31,532 nucleotides of DNA, taken from the IMG/VR virus record IMGVR_UViG_3300048592_000160, positions 1-31,532 of that record; one strand, written 5' to 3'. The stretch comes from a virus. Position 1 is the first letter of the stretch. Each line of letters opens with the position of its first letter. Of this stretch, positions 4,712-31,532 are shown piece after piece. The notes under the pieces were generated by a model, which was not told the origin of the DNA, did no database searches, and worked only from the letters and a program-made list of their open reading frames with translations. The position numbers and the translations under genes were made by a program.

Positions 4712-7353
4712 CGACCACAGTCAACTCTCTGCGCATCGAGGCTTCGGTCGCGGGTGCTGAGACGGCTATTGCGAAGCTGAGAGCCCTCGAAGAAGCTCAG
4801 CGCAAGGTGGGCAAGGCGGGCGATCAGCTCGCCAAGGACACCGACCGCGGGGACAAGTCGTTCGCCAACGCCGCCAAGACTGCTGAGGCTCTCCGTCGGA
4901 AGTACATCGATGGCTACTCGGCCGCCCAGAACTTCCGGGCTGAGGTCGCGCGACTGAACCGGGCTATCGAGGCCGGGACAATCTCTTCCTCGGACGCTGC
5001 CACAGTCCTGTCGGCGCTCAAGTCGAGGATGGATCAGGCTGCCGCTGGCGCAGTGAGCGCTGGCACCCAGATGCAGACGTTTGGCCGCAGTGCAGCGAAC
5101 GCCACGCATCTGACGATGCAGAACATGGGCAACCTGCAGTTCCAGCTGAACGACATTGCGATGGGGCTCGCTACAGGCCAGTCGCCGTTCATCGTCATCA
5201 GTCAGCAGGGCGCCCAGATAGCTCAGATGTTCGGGCCCGGCACGTCTATTCGTAGCGCCATCGCTGCCCTGGGCGCCGGCTTCGTGGCCATGCTGAACCC
5301 GATCAACCTGACTGTGGTAGGTCTCGCCGCGGCAGCCGCTGGCGTCAGCTACCTGTGGTCTACGTGGGACAGCGGCGGTAGTCAGGTCGAGGAGGCGTTG
5401 AAGCGTCATGAGGAGTTGATCTCTCAGATCAAGGACGCTTACGGCGAAGCCGCCAAGGGCGCGAAGGATTACGCCAGCGAGTCGCTCAGCGTCATTCAGG
5501 CTGCTACACAGCAGATGCAAGAAGACCTTCGTGCCGCTGTCCTAGCAGGCGCACAGGACGCTGCGTCGGCATTCCCCGGCCGCAGCTTCACGTCCTACAG
5601 CATGGACGACTTCGAGGGGAGCATTGATGTCCTGAACCGCTTCAGGCAGGCGATGCACGACCTGGACGCGGGCATTGCTTCCGGAGAGCCGAACCTTCGT
5701 CTGTTCCGCGAGCAGATGGCGGCTATTCTGCAGGATGATCGGGCTTCAGAGAGCCAGCGTGCCGCCGCTCGGTACTTCATCGAGATCACCGAGGAGGCAG
5801 GCAAGGCAGCCCGCGCGCTCGAGGCCTACGCTACTGTAGCCAAGACGATCTACGCTACTCGAGCCCCCCATGAAGTCGGGCCTGAGTATCGTGGCCCGGT
5901 GTTGATCGGCCCAGAGGTTCAGCCGCAGCGGCCGCCGAACCTTCTGGACTTCGATCCTGACAAGACCGGCGACACGCCGAAGAAGGAGACCAAGGCGGTC
6001 GACACCTACGCCGAGCTCATGCGGGTCACGGATCAGCGTATCGCTCAGCTTCGTGTCGAGCTCACAGCACTGGGCATGACCGAGGAGGCTGCTCGTCGAT
6101 ATCGTCTTGAGCAGGAGCTGCTTCTTCAGGCTCAGCAGCGTGGCATTGCGCTGTCGCCGCAGGAGGAGCAGCAGCTTCGGAACAAGGCCCAGGTCATGGC
6201 CGAGATCCAGAAGCAGACGGAAGACCTGAAGGATGCCCAGAAGTCCGCCGAAGAGGCCGGCAAGTTCATGGCCTCGACTCTCGAGCAGGCTCTGATGGGT
6301 GTCGTCCAGGGTGGAGATCAGGCGAAGCAGGCTATCATGCGCCTGATCGCTGAGCTCCTCAAGGGTGCACTGATCGGAGAAGGCGCCTTCGCTGGCGTGT
6401 TCAAGCGTCTCGCCGGTGGCGGTGGGTCGAGCGCTGGGGCAGTAGCCCAGACTGTGGACGAAGCTGTCAACGGTCTAGCCGCGGGCACCGAGGTCGGCGC
6501 TGCTCGTCTCGCAGGAGGCGCCGATGCTCAGTCGATGGCCTGGAATTTCTGGGCGTCGAAGGGGCTCAAGCCGCACCAGATTGCCGGCGTCATGGGAAAC
6601 ATCGGTGCAGAGTCAGGCTTCAATCCTTCCGCTGTCGGTGACGGTGGCAAGGCCTGGGGCCTGTATCAGCATCATGCCGACCGTAGAGCCGGCATCAGTG
6701 GCTTCCTCGGCGATCCGATGAAGCAGCACGAGCTGGCCTGGCAGGAGCTGCAGGGTCCCGAGAACCGAGCGTGGAGTGCCCTGATGGGCTCTTCGAACGT
6801 TCGTGAGGCGACTGCTGCCTTCGGTGGCTTCGAACGTCCACAGGGCTTCTCGTGGGGCAACCCGGAAGGGATGCACAACTGGACCGGACGACTGGCTGGC
6901 GCTGAGCAGGCGTTGGCCAAGTTCGGCCAAACCACGATAGGCGCCACGGAAGGACTCGGGACGCTGGGCAAGGGCTTCGTCGATATCGGCGGCGCGCTTG
7001 CAGGGGCCAGCGGAGGTGGCGGAGGTGGCGGCTTCGGCGGGATCATCTCTGCTTTCCTCAGCCTCATCACTGGCGGTGGGTTTGCCAAGGGCGGCGTGAC
7101 TGATCGTCCCGCAGTCTTCGGCGAGGCTGGCCCCGAGGCTGCTGTGCCCCTGCCGGACGGTCGCTCGATCCCGGTCAAGATGCACGGCGGTCGTGGAGGC
7201 AGCAACTACAAGTTCGGTGACACCAACATCACGATCCAGGGCGAGGCCTCTGGCTCCACTGTGGATCGTATCGACAAGAAGATCCGCCGTGCTCAAGCAG
7301 ACCTGATCAAGGAGCTTCAGCGCAGCCGCAGCAACGAATGGCGGGACGACTGA
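4708..7353 (+). CDS. Tail tape measure protein with embedded lysozyme-like domain
   Basis: 881 residues, the longest gene of the tail module, following the frameshifted chaperone as usual. The N-terminus is coiled-coil rich; FQLNDIAMGLATGQSPFIVI with QQGAQIAQMF near residue 150 is a typical tape measure motif, followed by a hydrophobic stretch around 190-215. Residues about 607-730 resemble phage tail lysozyme domains (W-N-F-W...G-N-I-G-A-E-S-G-F-N-P...WGLYQHH), with Glu635 as likely catalytic residue. The C-terminus has GGFAKGGVTDRPAVFGEAGPEA, common at tape measure ends (quoted as two parts: GGFAKGGVTDRP and AVFGEAGPEA). It sets tail length and probably opens peptidoglycan locally during DNA entry. 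Confidence 0.92.
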   Translation: MTTTVNSLRIEASVAGAETAIAKLRALEEAQRKVGKAGDQLAKDTDRGDKSFANAAKTAEALRRKYIDGYSAAQNFRAEVARLNRAIEAGTISSSDAATVLSALKSRMDQAAAGAVSAGTQMQTFGRSAANATHLTMQNMGNLQFQLNDIAMGLATGQSPFIVISQQGAQIAQMFGPGTSIRSAIAALGAGFVAMLNPINLTVVGLAAAAAGVSYLWSTWDSGGSQVEEALKRHEELISQIKDAYGEAAKGAKDYASESLSVIQAATQQMQEDLRAAVLAGAQDAASAFPGRSFTSYSMDDFEGSIDVLNRFRQAMHDLDAGIASGEPNLRLFREQMAAILQDDRASESQRAAARYFIEITEEAGKAARALEAYATVAKTIYATRAPHEVGPEYRGPVLIGPEVQPQRPPNLLDFDPDKTGDTPKKETKAVDTYAELMRVTDQRIAQLRVELTALGMTEEAARRYRLEQELLLQAQQRGIALSPQEEQQLRNKAQVMAEIQKQTEDLKDAQKSAEEAGKFMASTLEQALMGVVQGGDQAKQAIMRLIAELLKGALIGEGAFAGVFKRLAGGGGSSAGAVAQTVDEAVNGLAAGTEVGAARLAGGADAQSMAWNFWASKGLKPHQIAGVMGNIGAESGFNPSAVGDGGKAWGLYQHHADRRAGISGFLGDPMKQHELAWQELQGPENRAWSALMGSSNVREATAAFGGFERPQGFSWGNPEGMHNWTGRLAGAEQALAKFGQTTIGATEGLGTLGKGFVDIGGALAGASGGGGGGGFGGIISAFLSLITGGGFAKGGVTDRPAVFGEAGPEAAVPLPDGRSIPVKMHGGRGGSNYKFGDTNITIQGEASGSTVDRIDKKIRRAQADLIKELQRSRSNEWRDD

Positions 7354-7354
7354 G

Positions 7355-8092
7355 ATGGCCACTATCTTCGAGGACATGCCGCCGATACTTCGGCCGAATG
7401 AAGTGATGTTTCATCCGATGCCCTCGGTGAAGGTCGGACCGACATTGCCAGATGGGCGTCGTCAGACAATACAGTCTGCGGCGCCCCACTGGATGGCCGA
7501 GATCAAGTATAATCTGGCGACAGCGGATGAGGTTCGCGAGTGGCGTGCAACTGTCGCTAAGATGGAAGGCGGCGCCCGTGAGTACGTCATCCCCGTCTAC
7601 GACCGTCGGCAGGCTCCGTGGCCCACGGGCTTCGACTGGATGAGCAGCAAGCCCACCGTGACTGTGGGCGGCAACATCAATAGGAAGCAGATCATTCAGG
7701 TCTACCCGATTGCGGCTCCGGGCAGCAGCCCTTACGGGAACACCATACCCGCTGGGACGACGCGGATCTGGATCGAGTGTCAGCGGTCTGGTCGCATCAG
7801 GCGCGGTCAGTACTTCTCAGTCCGAGACGGCACCATGCGCCAACGTCTCTACATGATCATCAATGTCGAGCGCTACAATCTGTCCAGCGCTGTGGGAGAT
7901 GTCGATCAGGGCTACATCGACTTTATCCCGCCGATGAGGACGGACACGCCGATCCGGCAGCTGCTGGACTTCGATGATCCTCGAGCAACCATGACGCTCG
8001 CTGAGCCCGGCAGCGGCAAGCTGACGCTGAGGGCTTGGGAAACCTACGAGCCGTCAATCATCGCGCGGGAGAGCTTCGGTGGAGTTTTCTAG
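7355..8092 (+). CDS. Distal tail protein
   Basis: 245 residues, starting 1 nt after the tape measure stop. Beta-rich, with IKYNLATADEVREWRATVAK and a conserved-looking FDFIPP-like segment (Y-I-D-F-I-P-P-M-R). Its place directly after the tape measure and before the hub protein matches the distal tail (Dit/GTA gp12-like) position, where a hexameric ring ends the tube. No enzymatic motif. The precise family is not recognised; the role is mainly from synteny. Confidence 0.65.
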   Translation: MATIFEDMPPILRPNEVMFHPMPSVKVGPTLPDGRRQTIQSAAPHWMAEIKYNLATADEVREWRATVAKMEGGAREYVIPVYDRRQAPWPTGFDWMSSKPTVTVGGNINRKQIIQVYPIAAPGSSPYGNTIPAGTTRIWIECQRSGRIRRGQYFSVRDGTMRQRLYMIINVERYNLSSAVGDVDQGYIDFIPPMRTDTPIRQLLDFDDPRATMTLAEPGSGKLTLRAWETYEPSIIARESFGGVF

Positions 8093-8654
8093 GCTTCAGC
8101 GTCGCCTGCTCAGAGGCGAGAAGATCAACCTGGCCCGTATGGCTGAGTTCCACTTCCGCTCAGGCGTTCAGCGGTACTGGCCAGGCCACACCAAGTTCAC
8201 TGACTTCGAGGGTAACACCTGGGAGCCAACGATGGGCATGGGCGCGGTCACCGGCATTCGTCAGTCGCACAACGGGACGGCGCCCGAGCTCAAGTTCGAA
8301 CTGTCAGGGATTGATCGTCGGTTCATGAGGATCGCTCGCAGCGCTGGGGACGAGTACTACAATCGTCTTGTCCGAGTCATGTGGCAGTTCTTCGACGACG
8401 ACTGGAACCTGATCGGCAATCCCATCGTCATGACATGGGGACTCATGAAGACGATGGCTTCGAAGCGTCAGACAGACGAGGAGACTCAGTTGCAGTCGCT
8501 GATCCTCACTGCCGAGTCGCCGTTCGAAGGTCGCGCTCGTGCCAGGAACTCATACCTCACGGACACTGATCAACGCCGCAGGTCACCGGGAGACCTTATA
8601 TGTTCACGGATCGCGGGAATAGAAACGAAGCTCATCACGTTTCCTGCTTTCTGA
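8079..8654 (+). CDS. Tail hub / baseplate protein (GTA gp13-like position)
   Basis: 191 residues. The start is GTG at 8079 (V-E-F-S-R-L-Q), with GGGAG upstream, overlapping the previous gene by 14 nt. The sequence AEFHFRSGVQRYWPGHTKFT, then GNTWEPTMGMGAVTGIRQ and FELSGIDRRF is similar in layout to small hub proteins that follow the distal tail gene in GTA-like tails ('....r.......l.....yepamG.....i......'). It probably forms the ring between distal tail and tip. Function from position and pattern. Confidence 0.6.
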   Translation: MEFSRLQRRLLRGEKINLARMAEFHFRSGVQRYWPGHTKFTDFEGNTWEPTMGMGAVTGIRQSHNGTAPELKFELSGIDRRFMRIARSAGDEYYNRLVRVMWQFFDDDWNLIGNPIVMTWGLMKTMASKRQTDEETQLQSLILTAESPFEGRARARNSYLTDTDQRRRSPGDLICSRIAGIETKLITFPAF

Positions 8655-9037
8655 AGGACATCGCTCGACGGCCTTTTGTGTGGGGCCACACCGACTGCGC
8701 CTTGGTGATAGCCGACTGGATGATCTCCCAGGGTCGCAACTACGATCCTGCGGAGTCATTTCGTGGAACGTACAAGACCGAGAAAGAGTGCTCGGAGATC
8801 CTTCGTCAACACGGAGGGCTGCTGCGGCTCTTCAGACGTATCGCCAAGGACCTCAATCTCGCCCGCGTCTACGACTTTCAACCCGGAGATGTGGGCGTGG
8901 TTCGAGTCTATCGTGAGGATGGCTCATCCGAGCACATCTCGGCAATCAGGACGCCGTCGGGACGATGGGCGATGAAATGCACCCATGGAGTCATGATCCT
9001 GACTAAGGTAAAGGTGGTCGCCGCCTGGAGGATTTAA
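8600..9037 (+). CDS. NlpC/P60-like Cys-His peptidase, tail-associated
   Basis: 145 residues, ATG at 8600 with GGGAG 7 nt upstream, overlapping the hub gene by 55 nt. The motif RPFVWGHTDCALVIADWM places a catalytic Cys after 'WG..DC', followed by the helix seen in phage NlpC/P60 and DUF6950-type proteins; RGTYKTEKECSEILRQHGGL is also characteristic. A His in SSEHISAIR is the likely second catalytic residue. Such proteins sit between hub and tip genes (GTA gp14 position) and are thought to trim cell-wall peptides during entry. Confidence 0.75.
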   Translation: MFTDRGNRNEAHHVSCFLKDIARRPFVWGHTDCALVIADWMISQGRNYDPAESFRGTYKTEKECSEILRQHGGLLRLFRRIAKDLNLARVYDFQPGDVGVVRVYREDGSSEHISAIRTPSGRWAMKCTHGVMILTKVKVVAAWRI

Positions 9038-9039
9038 CG

Positions 9040-26166: not shown

Positions 26167-26422
26167 CCAGTGCCCCCGGCAAGAACTGGCCTTCGGTCAT
26201 CACAGCGTCAGCGTAGATCGTCGGCTCGTCTGCATGAGCCAGGTTCTTCTCTGAGTAGATGTGCAGGAAGTAACCGCCACCGTCAGCCTCGTGCCGGACG
26301 ACGTACCGTCCTGCTGGCTCGTGCGGCAATCCTTCGTAGAGGTTGAACCTGGAGACGACCGTGCCAGCGATGCGATAGTCGCCGGTCACCTTGACCACTC
26401 GGTCACCCACTCTGAACAGCAT
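26156..26422 (-). CDS. Small SH3/KOW-like beta-barrel protein
   Basis: 88 residues from the ATG at 26422, chosen because GGGAG lies 7 nt upstream; the longer open frame from 26458 lies inside the polymerase gene. [20 protein letters not shown], then TVVSRFNL and [20 protein letters not shown] have the alternating strands and 'vGDrVvk..g.y...GtVv' pattern of SH3-like or KOW-like barrels frequent in phage genomes. It overlaps the polymerase end by 20 nt. No assigned role; perhaps a polymerase or nucleic-acid accessory. Confidence 0.65.
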
Positions 26423-28961
26423 TCTGCTTCTCCCATTTCTCGAGTGATACCCCAGCACCCCAGGGGCCGACCTTGCCGTCAGCCAGCACGGGCACCTTCA
26501 GCTTGATGTCAAACTCATCGAACAGTCTCGGCCTGGTCATGATCGTCAGCAGCCGCCCCATCACCTCAGGAACCAGTTCGGTCTTGACCATGGCTAGGAT
26601 GGCGTCATGGACTGTTCCCACGATCCTCACTTTATCAGGCCCGTACTCCTCGCGCAACTGAAGCGCAGACATTAGGTTGATCTCGTTGGCGAACGACTGC
26701 ACCGGCGAGTTGATGGCCTGCCGCTCAGCCTCCCTCCGCTGTGGCGTGTCTTCCATCAGCAGCGCATTAGGCAGTCGTCGCTTGCGACCAGACAGCGACC
26801 TCACGTAGCCGTTGCGACGGGCGAAGTTCCGCTGCTTGGTGTGCCACTGAGTGTAGTCGGCATAGCTGCTGAAGAACGCCTCGCGGCTGGCCTGAGCCTG
26901 CTCGTCAGTCACGCTGACGCCGTAGTTGTCGCGAGCGTATATCTTGAACTTCTTCCACCACATTCCATATAAATATCCGAAGTTAATCGCCTTCGCCTTC
27001 TTGCGATACTCTTTCCACTCCTTGTTGATCTCGGCTGCTGTGTCCGGGCCCATCTCGAGCAACGCCTCGATGGACTTGGCGTAGTTCAGCGACTTGTCCT
27101 GCTTCCACGTTCTCGCGGTGTCGAGCACGAGGTCCTTCAGGGCGGCGCCGCGCTCAATCTCATTGATGGCCGTCAGCCAGTGCACGTCCACATCGTTGTT
27201 GAACGCCCACAGCATTCGGCGCTCGCCTGCCAGCTCAGCGGCGATGCGAAGCTCGATCTGGCTGAGGTCGCACTCGATCAACGTCCAGCCGGGCGGAGCC
27301 GTGATCAGCGTCCGGATGCGAGGATCCCGCGGCACTTGCTGAAGGTTGGGGTGCTCGCAGGACAGTCGACCGGTCACGGTTCCGTGCAGCTTGAACGACG
27401 GGTGAAGGAAAGCGTGATCCTCGCCGCGGATGCGACGCCAGTGGATGAATGGCTTCCAGCCATCGATGAAAAAGGATAGCTGTTGCTTGGCGGCTCGATA
27501 CCTCAGCAGCGCCCCGACGCATGGATGATCGATCTGGTTGAGGGCGGACTCGCTACAGGAAGGATTGCCCGCGTCTGTCTTCTCAACCACAGGGATCTTC
27601 AAGTCCTCGTACAGCAGCTTGGACAGCTGCTTCGTCGAGCCCCAGTTGATGTCGCCCCACTGCTTCAGCTCTTGCTCGGCATCGTGCTTCAGCTGACGAA
27701 GCACAGCCTCAGCCTCGTCGAACTTGGTGTGGTCTATGTAGATGCCATAGTACTCCACCTCAGTGAACATCCGAGAGCAGGGCATCAGTATTAGCTCGAA
27801 CACCCGCCGCGTCTCAGGCTCCCTCCTCAGCATCTTCCTGAATACACGCCTCAGCTCAAGCGTATAGTACAGGTCATGGGCGTGATACATCGCTAGCTTT
27901 TCTATCGATGTATTGCCGCGCTTGCCGTCTTTGTCGATATCCCAGTCGGGCGCGCCACAGAACCTCATGGCCAGGTCCTTGAGGCCGTGACGAGTATTCT
28001 CGTCGAGGGCGTAGTGTGCCAGCATAGTGTCGAAGACCAGCAGCTCGTGCCACCTGACGCCGTAGTGAACCCAGACCCACAGGCAGTCGAACTTCCCGTT
28101 ATGTGCGACGAGCTCGACTTCGTTCTCTCTCAGCCGCTGGTCAACCCTGTGGATCATGTCGTCCAGCGTGTCATCGCTGAACGGCGAGCCATCGTGATGC
28201 AGAGGCAGCGACCACTCTCCCGCGTTTGTGCCGAAGCCGATCATCGTGATCTTTGCCGGGGCGTCGATATACGTCGGCTTGCCCTTGACCGTCTTCAGCT
28301 CTTTCTTCTGCCACGGGTACAGGCAGGTGGTCTCGATGTCGAATGAGACTGTGCCGGTCAGCGCGTCGAGCATCTGCTCGAAGTCCGCCATCGTCTTGAC
28401 GAGGTGCGGACGTAGCTTTCCCTCTCGGGGTATCTCACCGGCCTTGATGATCTCGCACAGCAGTCGGATGTCGTTCTCGATGAAGTGCAGCTGGGCGGGA
28501 TCGCGCAGAGCGAAGGCCGGGTGGAACGTCGGCAGGTAGATGATGCCGTCACGCTCGAAAGGCCGACCTCGTCGTGACGTGATGCCCGCTGCTCCGGTGA
28601 TCGACATGAGCGGCGTGTTGCCCAGCAGCAGGACGAACTTCGGCTTAACCTTGGCGATCTCCTTGTCCAGCCACACCTTGCACTTCTTGATCTCGCTCTT
28701 CGTCGGCGTTCGATTGTCAGGTGGCCTGCAGTGGACGGCATTCGTGATGTAGACACGACGACGCCCGATGCCGTAAGCCTCGAGCAGGTCGGTCAGCAGC
28801 TGGCCCGCCTTGCCTATGAAGGGCTTCCCGCCCTCGTCCTCGTTCCTGCCCGGCGCCTCGCCTATGATCATGACATCGCATGGCGTCGGGCCTGTGCCCA
28901 TGAGTCCGACTGTCTTGCAAGTCAGGTGAAGCTTGCAGAGAGTACAGTCCTCACTTCTCAT
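26403..28961 (-). CDS. Uracil-DNA glycosylase (family 4 type) fused to DNA polymerase I (family A)
   Basis: 852 residues. Residues 1-175: family 4-like UDG with Cys6, Cys9, Cys78 and Cys94 placed for a 4Fe-4S cluster, motif [20 protein letters not shown] (34-53) and [10 protein letters not shown] (143-152). Residues about 200-380: 3'-5' exonuclease with VSFDIETT (Asp208, Glu210), VAHNGKFD and YHAHD (Tyr359, Asp363). Residues about 390-850: polymerase with motif [11 protein letters not shown] (Asp565), motif [13 protein letters not shown] (Phe661 kept) and motif C TVHDAI (Asp786). It replicates phage DNA, and the UDG part may recognise uracil. N-terminal UDG domains occur in some phage polymerases (SPO1). 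It overlaps dCMP deaminase by 11 nt. Confidence 0.93.
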
Positions 28962-29415
28962 CCACGATCTCCTTCGTAGCCCAGTCTATCACATAACCCG
29001 ATGGAGTCACCTGATAAATTCCTCCCGGGAACAGGTGAGCGTACTTCTCCAGGTGGTCGGATTTCCGGTAGAGCCGGTCGAAGAACAAGCGACTGACGCA
29101 GCGCACTCCGATGTACCTCATGCAGTCTGCGCACGGGCTGTCCGTGACATAGAAGTCCTTCAGGTTGCCGAACATGCTGGGGGGCACGTAGTCAATGGCG
29201 TTGACTTCGGCGTGGATCGTCTCGTGGCAGCCGTTGCGTCCCGGGCAGGAGTTGCCAGTGCAGTGGGGCTTGCCAGGCGGCGCGCCGTTGTACCCTATGC
29301 TGACGATGCGGTTCTGAACGACGACGACTGCTCCCACGTTTAGCCGGAAGCAAGTGCTGCGTTTGGAGACAACGTGAGCGATCTCCATGAAGAGAGAATG
29401 GCGGCTTATCCTCAT
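28951..29415 (-). CDS. dCMP deaminase
   Basis: 154 residues. Zinc site HAEVNA (His68, catalytic Glu70) and PCADC (Cys95, Cys98); the GYNGAPPGKPHC stretch with Cys52, Cys57, Cys63 and His64 fits the second, structural zinc of phage/ComEB deoxycytidylate deaminases. Converts dCMP to dUMP for thymidylate synthesis. The start overlaps the regulator gene stop (ATGA). It lies one gene from the putative dCMP hydroxymethylase, so both enzymes use the same substrate. Confidence 0.92.
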   Translation of the reverse strand: MRISRHSLFMEIAHVVSKRSTCFRLNVGAVVVVQNRIVSIGYNGAPPGKPHCTGNSCPGRNGCHETIHAEVNAIDYVPPSMFGNLKDFYVTDSPCADCMRYIGVRCVSRLFFDRLYRKSDHLEKYAHLFPGGIYQVTPSGYVIDWATKEIVDEK

Positions 29416-29744
29416 GAGATTGGGAGTCCATCGGCTCGGATCAAGTTGCGGATGTAGTCGGCCACAGTGATGTTGAGCTCCTTCGACTTCTGCCGGACAC
29501 TCCAGTACTCTCTGTCCGTCAGGTTGACGCGGACAGCCTTCAAGCGTTGCTGCACCATCGAGTGACGACGCTTGAGGACTAGCTTGTCACGTCTCTTGCG
29601 TACTGCTCCCGGCGTTCGCCCTATCTGTGGGGCGATGAGCTTGATTGGAATTCCTCGATCCCACAGGTCTCGAAGGATGGCGTCCTCTTCCGGCGTCCAG
29701 TCTGGCTGAGAGCCGGCAATGACCATCTTACGGCTTTTTGCCAT
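29412..29744 (-). CDS. Two-part DNA-binding regulator: SANT/Myb-like helix-turn-helix plus ribbon-helix-helix-like domain
   Basis: 110 residues from ATG 29744; ATG 29726, just after the upstream stop, is also possible, and neither has a good ribosome site. The N-terminal domain (DWTPEEDAILRDLWDRGIPI, KLIAPQIGRTPGAVRKRRDK) follows the SANT/GcrA-like 'Wt.eed..L..lw..g.s...IA..lgRt..aV..r...L' pattern. The C-terminal part (VRVNLTDREYWSVRQKSKEL, NITVADYIRNLIRADGL) resembles MetJ/Arc-type ribbon-helix-helix proteins. Likely a phage transcription regulator. It overlaps the hydroxymethylase end by 17 nt. Confidence 0.72.
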   Translation of the reverse strand: MAKSRKMVIAGSQPDWTPEEDAILRDLWDRGIPIKLIAPQIGRTPGAVRKRRDKLVLKRRHSMVQQRLKAVRVNLTDREYWSVRQKSKELNITVADYIRNLIRADGLPIS

Positions 29745-30570
29745 AGAGCTGATACCAATCGTTCTCGAAGATGTGAAGGCTGGTGGCGTGCATGACGTAG
29801 AGTCCGGGCTTGACATCGTGCCAGAGCTCGTCGTCTATCCTCAGCTGCTCGAGTACCCACAGCAGTAATCGAACCGTGAGATAGATATCGTCCCTGAAGT
29901 GGCGGACGAAGTCGCACGAGCGGAGCGGGTAGTATACGTCCATCCGTCCCTCTCGCATGATGAACTGGTAGCCCAGGGTACAGGGCTTCCTGTGGTCCGG
30001 GCCGAGCGAGACGTCCTCGGGGAAGTAGATGGGCAGCCACGCCTGGCGCGTCTGAGGATCTCGCACAAGCAGGTTGAGCAGATCGCGAAGATCGCCGTAT
30101 CGAGCACGGATACCGTAGTGGCCGACAGGGTTGTCCAGCTCCATGAAGCCAGCATCCCAGTCCTCCGGAGTGCGGGTAGGAGCAGTCACCACGCCGGCGT
30201 AGCGTGGCCAATATCGCTCCATGTAGTTGTGGTTGAATTGCTCATCGCTCCTGAAACGATCCGCGCTGTTACCCCAGGGCCAGTTCGCCCACTCCACGCC
30301 AGGATTGATCGGGACGCCGCAGACGCGCTCCTGGAAGTGTTTGTCCGCCCACGGCAGGTTAGGCTCGATGTCCTTTCGCCAGTGCGACAGGTCCTCGATG
30401 CCCTGCAACGGCACCTCGCAGCGGAAGTGCATCAGCTCGTAGGTCTTCATCTCTGGCCGGTCGGCGACGTTCATGCCTTGCCAGTGCATTGGTCGAGCAG
30501 CCCTGCCGTTGGCGTACATATCCTGCTTGACGCGAGCCATCAGGTTCTGGAAGTTGCGGTCGGTGATCAT
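29728..30570 (-). CDS. Deoxycytidylate 5-hydroxymethylase, T4 gp42-like (thymidylate synthase superfamily)
   Basis: 280 residues, start overlapping the previous stop (GAATGATC), GAGG 7 nt upstream. Conserved superfamily sites: nucleophile Cys197 (KPCTLGYQF), Gln202, RSCD (Arg217, Ser218, Asp220), and TSLHIFEND (His266). Eleven residues after Arg217, where thymidylate synthases have Asn177 (E. coli numbering), it has Asp228 in FRDD; T4 dCMP hydroxymethylase has FRND with Asp179 at this place, and SLHVY where this protein has SLHIF. Asp there is known to favour cytosine over uracil. It would make 5-hydroxymethyl-dCMP from dCMP and methylene-tetrahydrofolate. A divergent thymidylate synthase is the main alternative. 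Confidence 0.72.
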   Translation of the reverse strand: MITDRNFQNLMARVKQDMYANGRAARPMHWQGMNVADRPEMKTYELMHFRCEVPLQGIEDLSHWRKDIEPNLPWADKHFQERVCGVPINPGVEWANWPWGNSADRFRSDEQFNHNYMERYWPRYAGVVTAPTRTPEDWDAGFMELDNPVGHYGIRARYGDLRDLLNLLVRDPQTRQAWLPIYFPEDVSLGPDHRKPCTLGYQFIMREGRMDVYYPLRSCDFVRHFRDDIYLTVRLLLWVLEQLRIDDELWHDVKPGLYVMHATSLHIFENDWYQLYGKKP

Positions 30571-31370
30571 TCATCATCCTCGTCTGGGTCTACGTACTCA
30601 TTCCTGTAGCCTGGGTGGTGATCGTTTAGGTACTTGATGAGCGACTTCAGCTGCCCCTTCTCGATCCTGCTGTGGGCGTCGTCGTGCACTCTCATCGCCT
30701 GAGCGAACTTCGCAATGCCGCGATTGTGCTCGGGGCACAAGTAGCGAGCGGTCCACTTCACGATCCAGTCGAAGAAGTACTTGTCCCGGTTCCTGATGTC
30801 CTCGAGGTCTGCCACAGGATGGTCGAGCAGCGGGATGATCGTGACGAAGTACATCGGGTGGAGCGTGATGTTGGCGAAGTGAAAGCGCACGGACTCAACG
30901 TCTAGCTCGAAGCCCTCCAGCAGCACGTCCCGAACGAACACCAAGTCCGCCGGGAACTTCTTGAAGTATTCCGTAGTCCTGTAGAAGATGTCAATCCCCG
31001 TCCGTTTGTTGTTCTGCAGTGTCAGGCAGACAGACTGGATGCACGGGCCCATGACGCTGGCCCGCTTCGACGAGCCCTCATGCCCCTTGACTAGGTGGTT
31101 GTACGTATGGAACCCGACGCTGCCATACTTGGCCTTGCCCAGTCGTGCTTCCCACTGCCGCATCGCCTCAGCCCGAGACTCCTCGTGCAGGTAGTATTTG
31201 CGGAGCATCGTCATCTTGGACTTAGTGTACCCACAGTCCGCCAGCGTCAGGTCGTTCTCCCAGTTCCGGTAAAGGACAGAGCGTCCTCGAAGGATCTTGC
31301 GAGCCCCCGAGTAGAACGCTGCTTTCTGGCCGCACATTGCCAGCGCGCTGTCAAGCCAATCGTCTCTCAT
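30567..31370 (-). CDS. Second thymidylate-synthase-superfamily protein, divergent, function unknown
   Basis: 267 residues, GGGAG 4 nt before ATG. A Cys after Gly-Pro (Cys110, SVMGPCIQSVCLTLQ) aligns with the catalytic Cys, and FYRTTEYFKKFPADL aligns with LYQRS.D.FLG.PFNI without a gap, putting Asp142 eleven residues after Arg131, the base-specifying position. HFANITLHPMY (His171) fits the last conserved site. Other family residues are replaced. Lengths and order are as in the neighbouring enzyme, with a 4-nt overlap, so an old duplication or a hetero-oligomer is plausible. It might be a nucleotide-modifying enzyme or a non-catalytic partner. Superfamily membership is inference from aligned motifs. 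Confidence 0.55.
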   Translation of the reverse strand: MRDDWLDSALAMCGQKAAFYSGARKILRGRSVLYRNWENDLTLADCGYTKSKMTMLRKYYLHEESRAEAMRQWEARLGKAKYGSVGFHTYNHLVKGHEGSSKRASVMGPCIQSVCLTLQNNKRTGIDIFYRTTEYFKKFPADLVFVRDVLLEGFELDVESVRFHFANITLHPMYFVTIIPLLDHPVADLEDIRNRDKYFFDWIVKWTARYLCPEHNRGIAKFAQAMRVHDDAHSRIEKGQLKSLIKYLNDHHPGYRNEYVDPDEDDE

Positions 31371-31527
31371 GTGACTCCCTTATCCGGTCAACCTCCTCTA
31401 GCCACTCTCGAGCCTTGCGCTTCGCCTCCTGCTGCCAGCCCTCAGCCACTCGTGGCGGCAATGTCGGGTCGAAGGCAGCAGGTGCGATCCGCTCGGCCAG
31501 GAAGTCTACAGCTTCCTGTGGGATCAT
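31351..31527 (-). CDS. Small helical ORF at the right edge
   Basis: 58 residues if it starts at ATG 31527; 5 nt later the window ends, so it may be the tail of a longer gene. Predicted sequence M-I-P-Q-E-A-V-D-F-L then Pro-rich, then a charged helix (QQEAKRKAREWLEEVDRIRE). It overlaps the next gene's start by 20 nt. Codon use is like its neighbours. No function recognised. Confidence 0.5.
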   Translation of the reverse strand: MIPQEAVDFLAERIAPAAFDPTLPPRVAEGWQQEAKRKAREWLEEVDRIRESHERRLA

Positions 31528-31532
31528 TCGTC

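Follow-up and report, generated by a model that had tools for sequence, protein, structure and literature searches.

Does the pair of overlapping genes near one end of this viral DNA, both encoding relatives of thymidylate synthase (TS), form a module for the modification of cytosine, and what might each protein contribute to it? The window analysed here is an entire virus record of 31,532 bases. The two adjacent open reading frames that the initial annotation had singled out were recovered with the positions, lengths and strand listed in Table 1. The genes, transcribed in the order B then A, overlap by 4 nucleotides (ATGA), and the dCMP deaminase gene lies downstream of A in the same operon, with the Myb/GcrA-like gene sitting between them. 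In relatives, an NTP pyrophosphatase gene is often found at the spot that the partial open reading frame occupies in the window. The GcrA/Myb-like protein and the presence of Brevundimonas phages among the relatives hint at an alphaproteobacterial host, and the polymerase that neighbours the dCMP deaminase is fused to a uracil-DNA-glycosylase domain.

Table 1. Genes at and around the A-B pair in the window, with the evidence for each assignment.
Feature	Position	Strand	Evidence
Family-A DNA polymerase with N-terminal uracil-DNA-glycosylase domain	26403-28961	-	PF03167 1e-33, PF00476 7e-68
dCMP deaminase	28951-29415	-	PF00383 2e-16, PF14437 5e-7, PHROG_174 2e-34
Small Myb/GcrA-like DNA-binding protein	29412-29741	-	PF07750 1.6e-5 (below cut-off), PHROG_323 D5-like regulator 1e-8
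Protein A, TS superfamily, Asp228 at the TS-177 position	29728-30570	-	280 aa; PHROG_160, hhalign, model
Protein B, predicted TS-fold family without annotation	30567-31370	-	267 aa; model pLDDT 89.8, conservation
Partial ORF, cut by contig end, directly upstream of B	31351-31530	-	ORF list

As the initial annotation had reported, both proteins carry the Cys, Arg and Asp residues of a TS-like active site (C197, R217 and D228 in A; C110, R131 and D142 in B), with the Asp placed 11 residues after the Arg as in TS (R166-N177) and T4 gp42 (R168-D179), and the FRDD and SLHIF motifs of A match FRND and SLHVY of gp42. The three residues were invariant in 92 A sequences, and only Y60, C110, R131 and D142 were invariant among 84 B sequences, although in one alignment identity to the B protein of the window was as low as 16%. 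The AlphaFold check suggested for the two proteins returned models (pLDDT of 93.1 for A and 89.8 for B) that both matched TS-superfamily structures. Since the residues are invariant in both families and the models match this superfamily, the motif agreement exceeds chance, and the proposed membership, with Asp at position 177 in both proteins, was upheld.

Protein A belongs to PHROG_160 (E of 5e-25) and aligned to a profile of TS and dCMP hydroxymethylases with a P of 99.5 and an E of 2e-21 (hhalign). Its model, which had MilA, TS and AfhB as best structure matches, gave 9iqc as top Foldseek match (3.5e-12) and VIA Z values of 19.2 to MilA (rmsd 2.4, 217 aligned) and 18.8 to AfhB (rmsd 2.7, 208 aligned), and the fold is accompanied by the equivalents of Cys146 and Arg166. 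We compared 83 A sequences with 60 TS, 58 dCMP hydroxymethylases, 11 M6-type dUMP hydroxymethylases, 15 AfhB-type and 5 AF3-type sequences. At the TS-177 position, where TS has Asn, the sequences of A (83/83) and B (84/84) alike carry Asp, as do the T4-type dCMP hydroxymethylases (58/58) and the AfhB group; at TS-147, where TS has His, A has Thr or Ser, in line with the Thr of the T4-type enzymes (58/58) and with the AfhB group. Moreover, TS-167 is Ser in 82/83 A sequences and TS-126 is Arg in 83/83, unlike the MilA type with its Ala176 and Lys133. A specificity of A for cytosine is thus fairly well predicted. An ordinary thymidylate synthase is ruled out by Asp177, by the lack of His147 and by the FAD-dependent TS encoded near A in two relatives (MW202777 and MW202455), in which A is therefore unlikely to be the source of dTMP; the "thymidylate synthase" annotation of A in the phages that carry the pair is probably wrong. 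The reading that we prefer, and to which we give an even chance, is that the A-B pair would be the core of a pathway altering cytosine at the mononucleotide stage, before its entry into phage DNA.

Among the cytosine-type enzymes, A formed a clade of its own, marked by an invariant R194 before the Cys, Q176 at R127 and F268 at Y209, and by Asp at H212. In a tree of 51 sequences, A grouped with AfhB and AF3 with support of 99/93, although the branches are long. AfhB is named in PDB titles a dCMP hydroxylase and flavin-dependent monooxygenase, the use of flavin being taken from these titles only, and it is related to a 5-hydroxy-dCMP synthase of RB69-like phages (PMC13390438). A special case of our preferred reading, with the chemistry specified, is that A would be a flavin-dependent dCMP 5-hydroxylase like AfhB, producing 5-hydroxy-dCMP whose hydroxyl group would then be modified by B at the nucleotide level. 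The top Foldseek match, the position in the tree and the residues that A shares with AfhB at TS-209, and with both AfhB and AF3 at TS-212 and, by alignment, in the absence of Glu58, agree with such an activity. However, the AfhB type is marked, as read from our alignment and not from a published definition, by Asn at TS-169 and by a Glu that precedes the Cys, whereas A keeps Asp at the former position (Asp220, 82/83) and has Arg at the latter; given also the long branches, we regard this specific chemistry as rather unlikely.

The initial annotation had instead favoured 5-hydroxymethyl-dC as the product, which would make A a folate-dependent dCMP hydroxymethylase like T4 gp42 that produces 5hmdCMP, with B as an accessory protein and 5hmdC in the DNA, with or without later tailoring. 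This activity would be consistent with the conservation in A of Asp228, Thr198, Ser218 and the pterin-contact residue Asp220 (TS D169), the last of which makes A more folate-like at that position than the AfhB-type enzymes with their Asn, and with helper genes like those of T4 (dCMP deaminase, NTP pyrophosphatase and kinase). The published signature of dCMP hydroxymethylases, however, comprises Asp or Glu three residues before the Cys and Ser or Thr before the Tyr (PMC6400193). At the first of these positions A has Arg194 in 83/83 sequences, versus Asp in 58/58 dCMP hydroxymethylases and also in the dUMP hydroxymethylases; at the second, two residues before Tyr96, His114 is invariant in A where the dCMP hydroxymethylases have Ser. 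The position of Glu58/60 was occupied in A by His78 or Asn across three alignments and never by Glu, as judged by sequence alignment only. Thus, A appears from its sequence to lack the full signature, although the Asp at 177 is present, and a clade of A with the T4-type dCMP hydroxymethylases was weakly rejected (p-AU 0.037). The 5hmdC product was consequently not borne out, and a hydroxymethylase activity of A is considered unlikely.

For protein B, no Pfam match exceeded the cut-off, and its sequence profile found nothing in the PDB. It falls only into PHROG_34294/13667 (for the B proteins of NoShow and HippoPololi, E of 6e-132 and 3e-110 to PHROG_13667), both of which are listed as of unknown function and in which the TS fold was not recognised. 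Its model gave VIA Z values of 12.8 to AfhB 9iqu (rmsd 4.0, 177 aligned), 12.1 to MilA and about 11 to TS. The alignment of B to the TS profile, which by itself was not significant (hhalign), sets C110, R131 and D142 opposite C146, R166 and N177, so that the predicted fold is combined with a Cys-Arg-Asp motif in register; judging by spacing, Y60 may tentatively correspond to TS Tyr94. On the basis of predicted structure and motif, B would be a new TS-fold family, which fits the divergent new member that the initial annotation had suspected. No near relative of B was found in the bacterial genomes searched. A third TS-like paralogue of about 170-220 amino acids, with the same Cys...Arg+11 Asp motif and no Pfam or PHROG match over the cut-off, was observed in L060 (7441-7983), L058, L068, L099, L101, PMBT14, Almagne, STP12, STP9, Lebethron and Yakult, adjoining A in most of them.

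Of 106 phage records with A, about 103 also had B (85 from actinophages and 18 others), a count matched by organism tallies and not accession by accession; gp46/gp47 of phage Muddy is one such A/B pair. In 65 well-flanked loci from IMG/VR or phages, each with 4 kb or more on both sides of A, B was directly upstream of A in 47, elsewhere in 11 and absent in 7. Conversely, no B without A was found, the B queries of the phage collection matching only A-carrying organisms. Six contigs from metagenome-assembled genomes also carry A and B, two of them binned as archaea (L284 and L286, assigned to Pacearchaeota and Aenigmatarchaeota), which may be virus contigs or mis-binned.

Counting those not cut short, nine A loci lack B, and they come from two separate regions of the A tree. 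A gene resembling C5-cytosine methyltransferases was present in all nine, as in the seven B-less loci among the 65, and in none of the B-bearing neighbourhoods clustered (Fisher p of 1.4e-9 on the 65 loci, ignoring relatedness). The exclusion is not absolute, since in the human-gut phage MT121964 a tandem pair of B-like genes precedes A, giving a run of three TS-like genes (L309:6274-9045), and a C5-methyltransferase match lies elsewhere. The Cys of the methyltransferase is kept in HPEC or QPKC in the B-less loci (L041, L045, L064, L083, L084, L085, L086, L091 and L096), most of which also carry an asparagine-synthase-like gene; in L096 (about 6877-9039) an intein-like sequence appears to interrupt the methyltransferase-like gene directly behind HPEC.

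The occurrence of B-less A in two parts of the tree indicates that A can work without B, and hence that B probably comes after A; the finding of A without B, yet never of B without A, suggests the same order, although B could also depend on A because the two share an operon, and not because of the order of reactions. B most likely acts after A, with two live alternatives. In the first, A and B would pair as an obligate heterodimer, each supplying what the active site of the other lacks, as might be expected from the overlapping genes, the near-perfect co-occurrence and the shared TS fold, whose dimers have shared active sites with phosphate-binding arginines donated by the partner chain (PMC5175136). 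The nine B-less loci, the invariance of R175/Q176 in A of B-bearing and B-less loci alike, and the 11 loci in which B is not adjacent to A make this arrangement improbable. In the second, B would be a non-catalytic nucleotide-binding regulator derived from a TS-fold enzyme, for instance a dCMP sensor; neither R126 nor R127, the phosphate-binding arginines of TS, has a conserved counterpart in B, and His207 is kept in only about half of the B sequences, so that B may not be catalytic. However, the nucleophile position is Cys in all 84 B sequences, a constraint not expected from nucleotide binding by itself, and we hold a regulator to be very improbable.

The genes around the pair recur in the order thymidylate-kinase-like, NTP pyrophosphatase, B, A, dCMP deaminase, DNA polymerase, Cas4-like nuclease and Sak4. 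The cytosine-modification network defined by MetaGPA contains TS, PF01503, PF00383, PF14437, PF14743 and PF01068, and TS positions 147 and 177 were its strongest links to cytosine-modified contigs (PMC8670742). Members of this network recur here: PF00383 and PF14437 in the deaminase of the window, and, beside the pair in other loci, PF01503 (L012) and a PF14743+PF01068 ligase (L009). By its kinase, NTP pyrophosphatase, dCMP deaminase and DNA ligase, the neighbourhood resembles published cytosine-modification networks.

The initial annotation had also expected enzymes that tailor the modified base beyond the right edge of the window. No carbamoyltransferase (PF02543) was found in the window or in the records of 13 relatives, and no glycosyltransferase (PF00535/PF00534) in the window or in 12 of these 13 records; the exception, Streptomyces phage Zuko, carries GT2 domains some distance away from the module (about 20 kb), along with a GT1 match below the cut-off. 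Tailoring by these known enzymes was therefore rejected for the window and 12 of the 13 relatives. The papers searched made no mention of base modification for Muddy, GTE2 or FF47.

Collectively, our computations provided the fold, the invariant residues, the cytosine-type residues of A, the tight A-B linkage and the operon context. Of the initial interpretation, the fold, the Asp at 177, the new protein B and the look of a cytosine-modification module, which we consider likely, have stood, while the 5hmdC product and the tailoring enzymes have not. Returning to the preferred pathway, we infer that dCMP would be the substrate of A, that B would be catalytic and second, and that the phage DNA would be modified. 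Cys197 of A would attack C6 of dCMP, Asp228 would serve both to recognise the cytosine ring and to protonate it, and C5 would be functionalised; B, with its Cys nucleophile, a phosphate-binding Arg and the Asp, would then act on the product of A or complete the chemistry at C5. The phage kinase and the NTP pyrophosphatase would fill the nucleotide pool with the modified form, and the dCMP deaminase would divert plain dCMP. A bolder version, possible though somewhat doubtful, is that B forms a new family of catalytic TS-fold proteins, which perform a second C5 reaction on the modified dCMP made by A, giving an undescribed cytosine hypermodification built wholly at the nucleotide level, without glycosyl- or carbamoyltransferase, and that in some lineages B is replaced by the C5-methyltransferase-like enzyme, which would also use Cys attack on C6.

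The new part of this module would be B, a TS-fold family predicted from its model, overlooked until now and tied to A. A fold, a partner and likely active-site residues can thereby be assigned to a protein labelled "hypothetical" in some 100 sequenced phages, the therapeutic mycobacteriophage Muddy among them. Should a new modified cytosine be made, this would predict which phages withstand restriction and other defences directed at DNA, and would explain why the "thymidylate synthase" annotation is probably wrong.

Compared with known systems, A has the fold, the Cys, Arg166 and His207 in common with ThyA, and differs from it by Asp for Asn177, Thr or Ser for His147, and the loss of R127, Tyr209 and, by alignment, Glu58. 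T4 gp42 shares with A Asp177, the Thr after the Cys, Ser167, Asp169, His207 and similar helper genes; in contrast, Asp145, Ser94 and (by alignment) Glu60 are missing from A, in which Gln stands at R127 and Phe at Tyr218. The CMP hydroxymethylase MilA, which gave the highest VIA Z for A and has the cytosine-specific Asp, shows extra helices after the core as B does, but it prefers ribose (Ala176, Lys133), whereas the Ser218 and Arg175 of A are those expected for deoxyribose. AfhB of phage HY126 (PDB 9iqu and 9iqc) has in common with A the TS fold, Asp177, the Thr after the Cys, Phe209, Asp212 and, by alignment, the absence of Glu58, and AF3 likewise has Asp at TS-212 and no Glu58. Despite about 20% identity and the differences at Asp169 and at the Arg before the Cys, where AfhB and AF3 have Glu, AfhB was the best or near-best structural match for both A and B.
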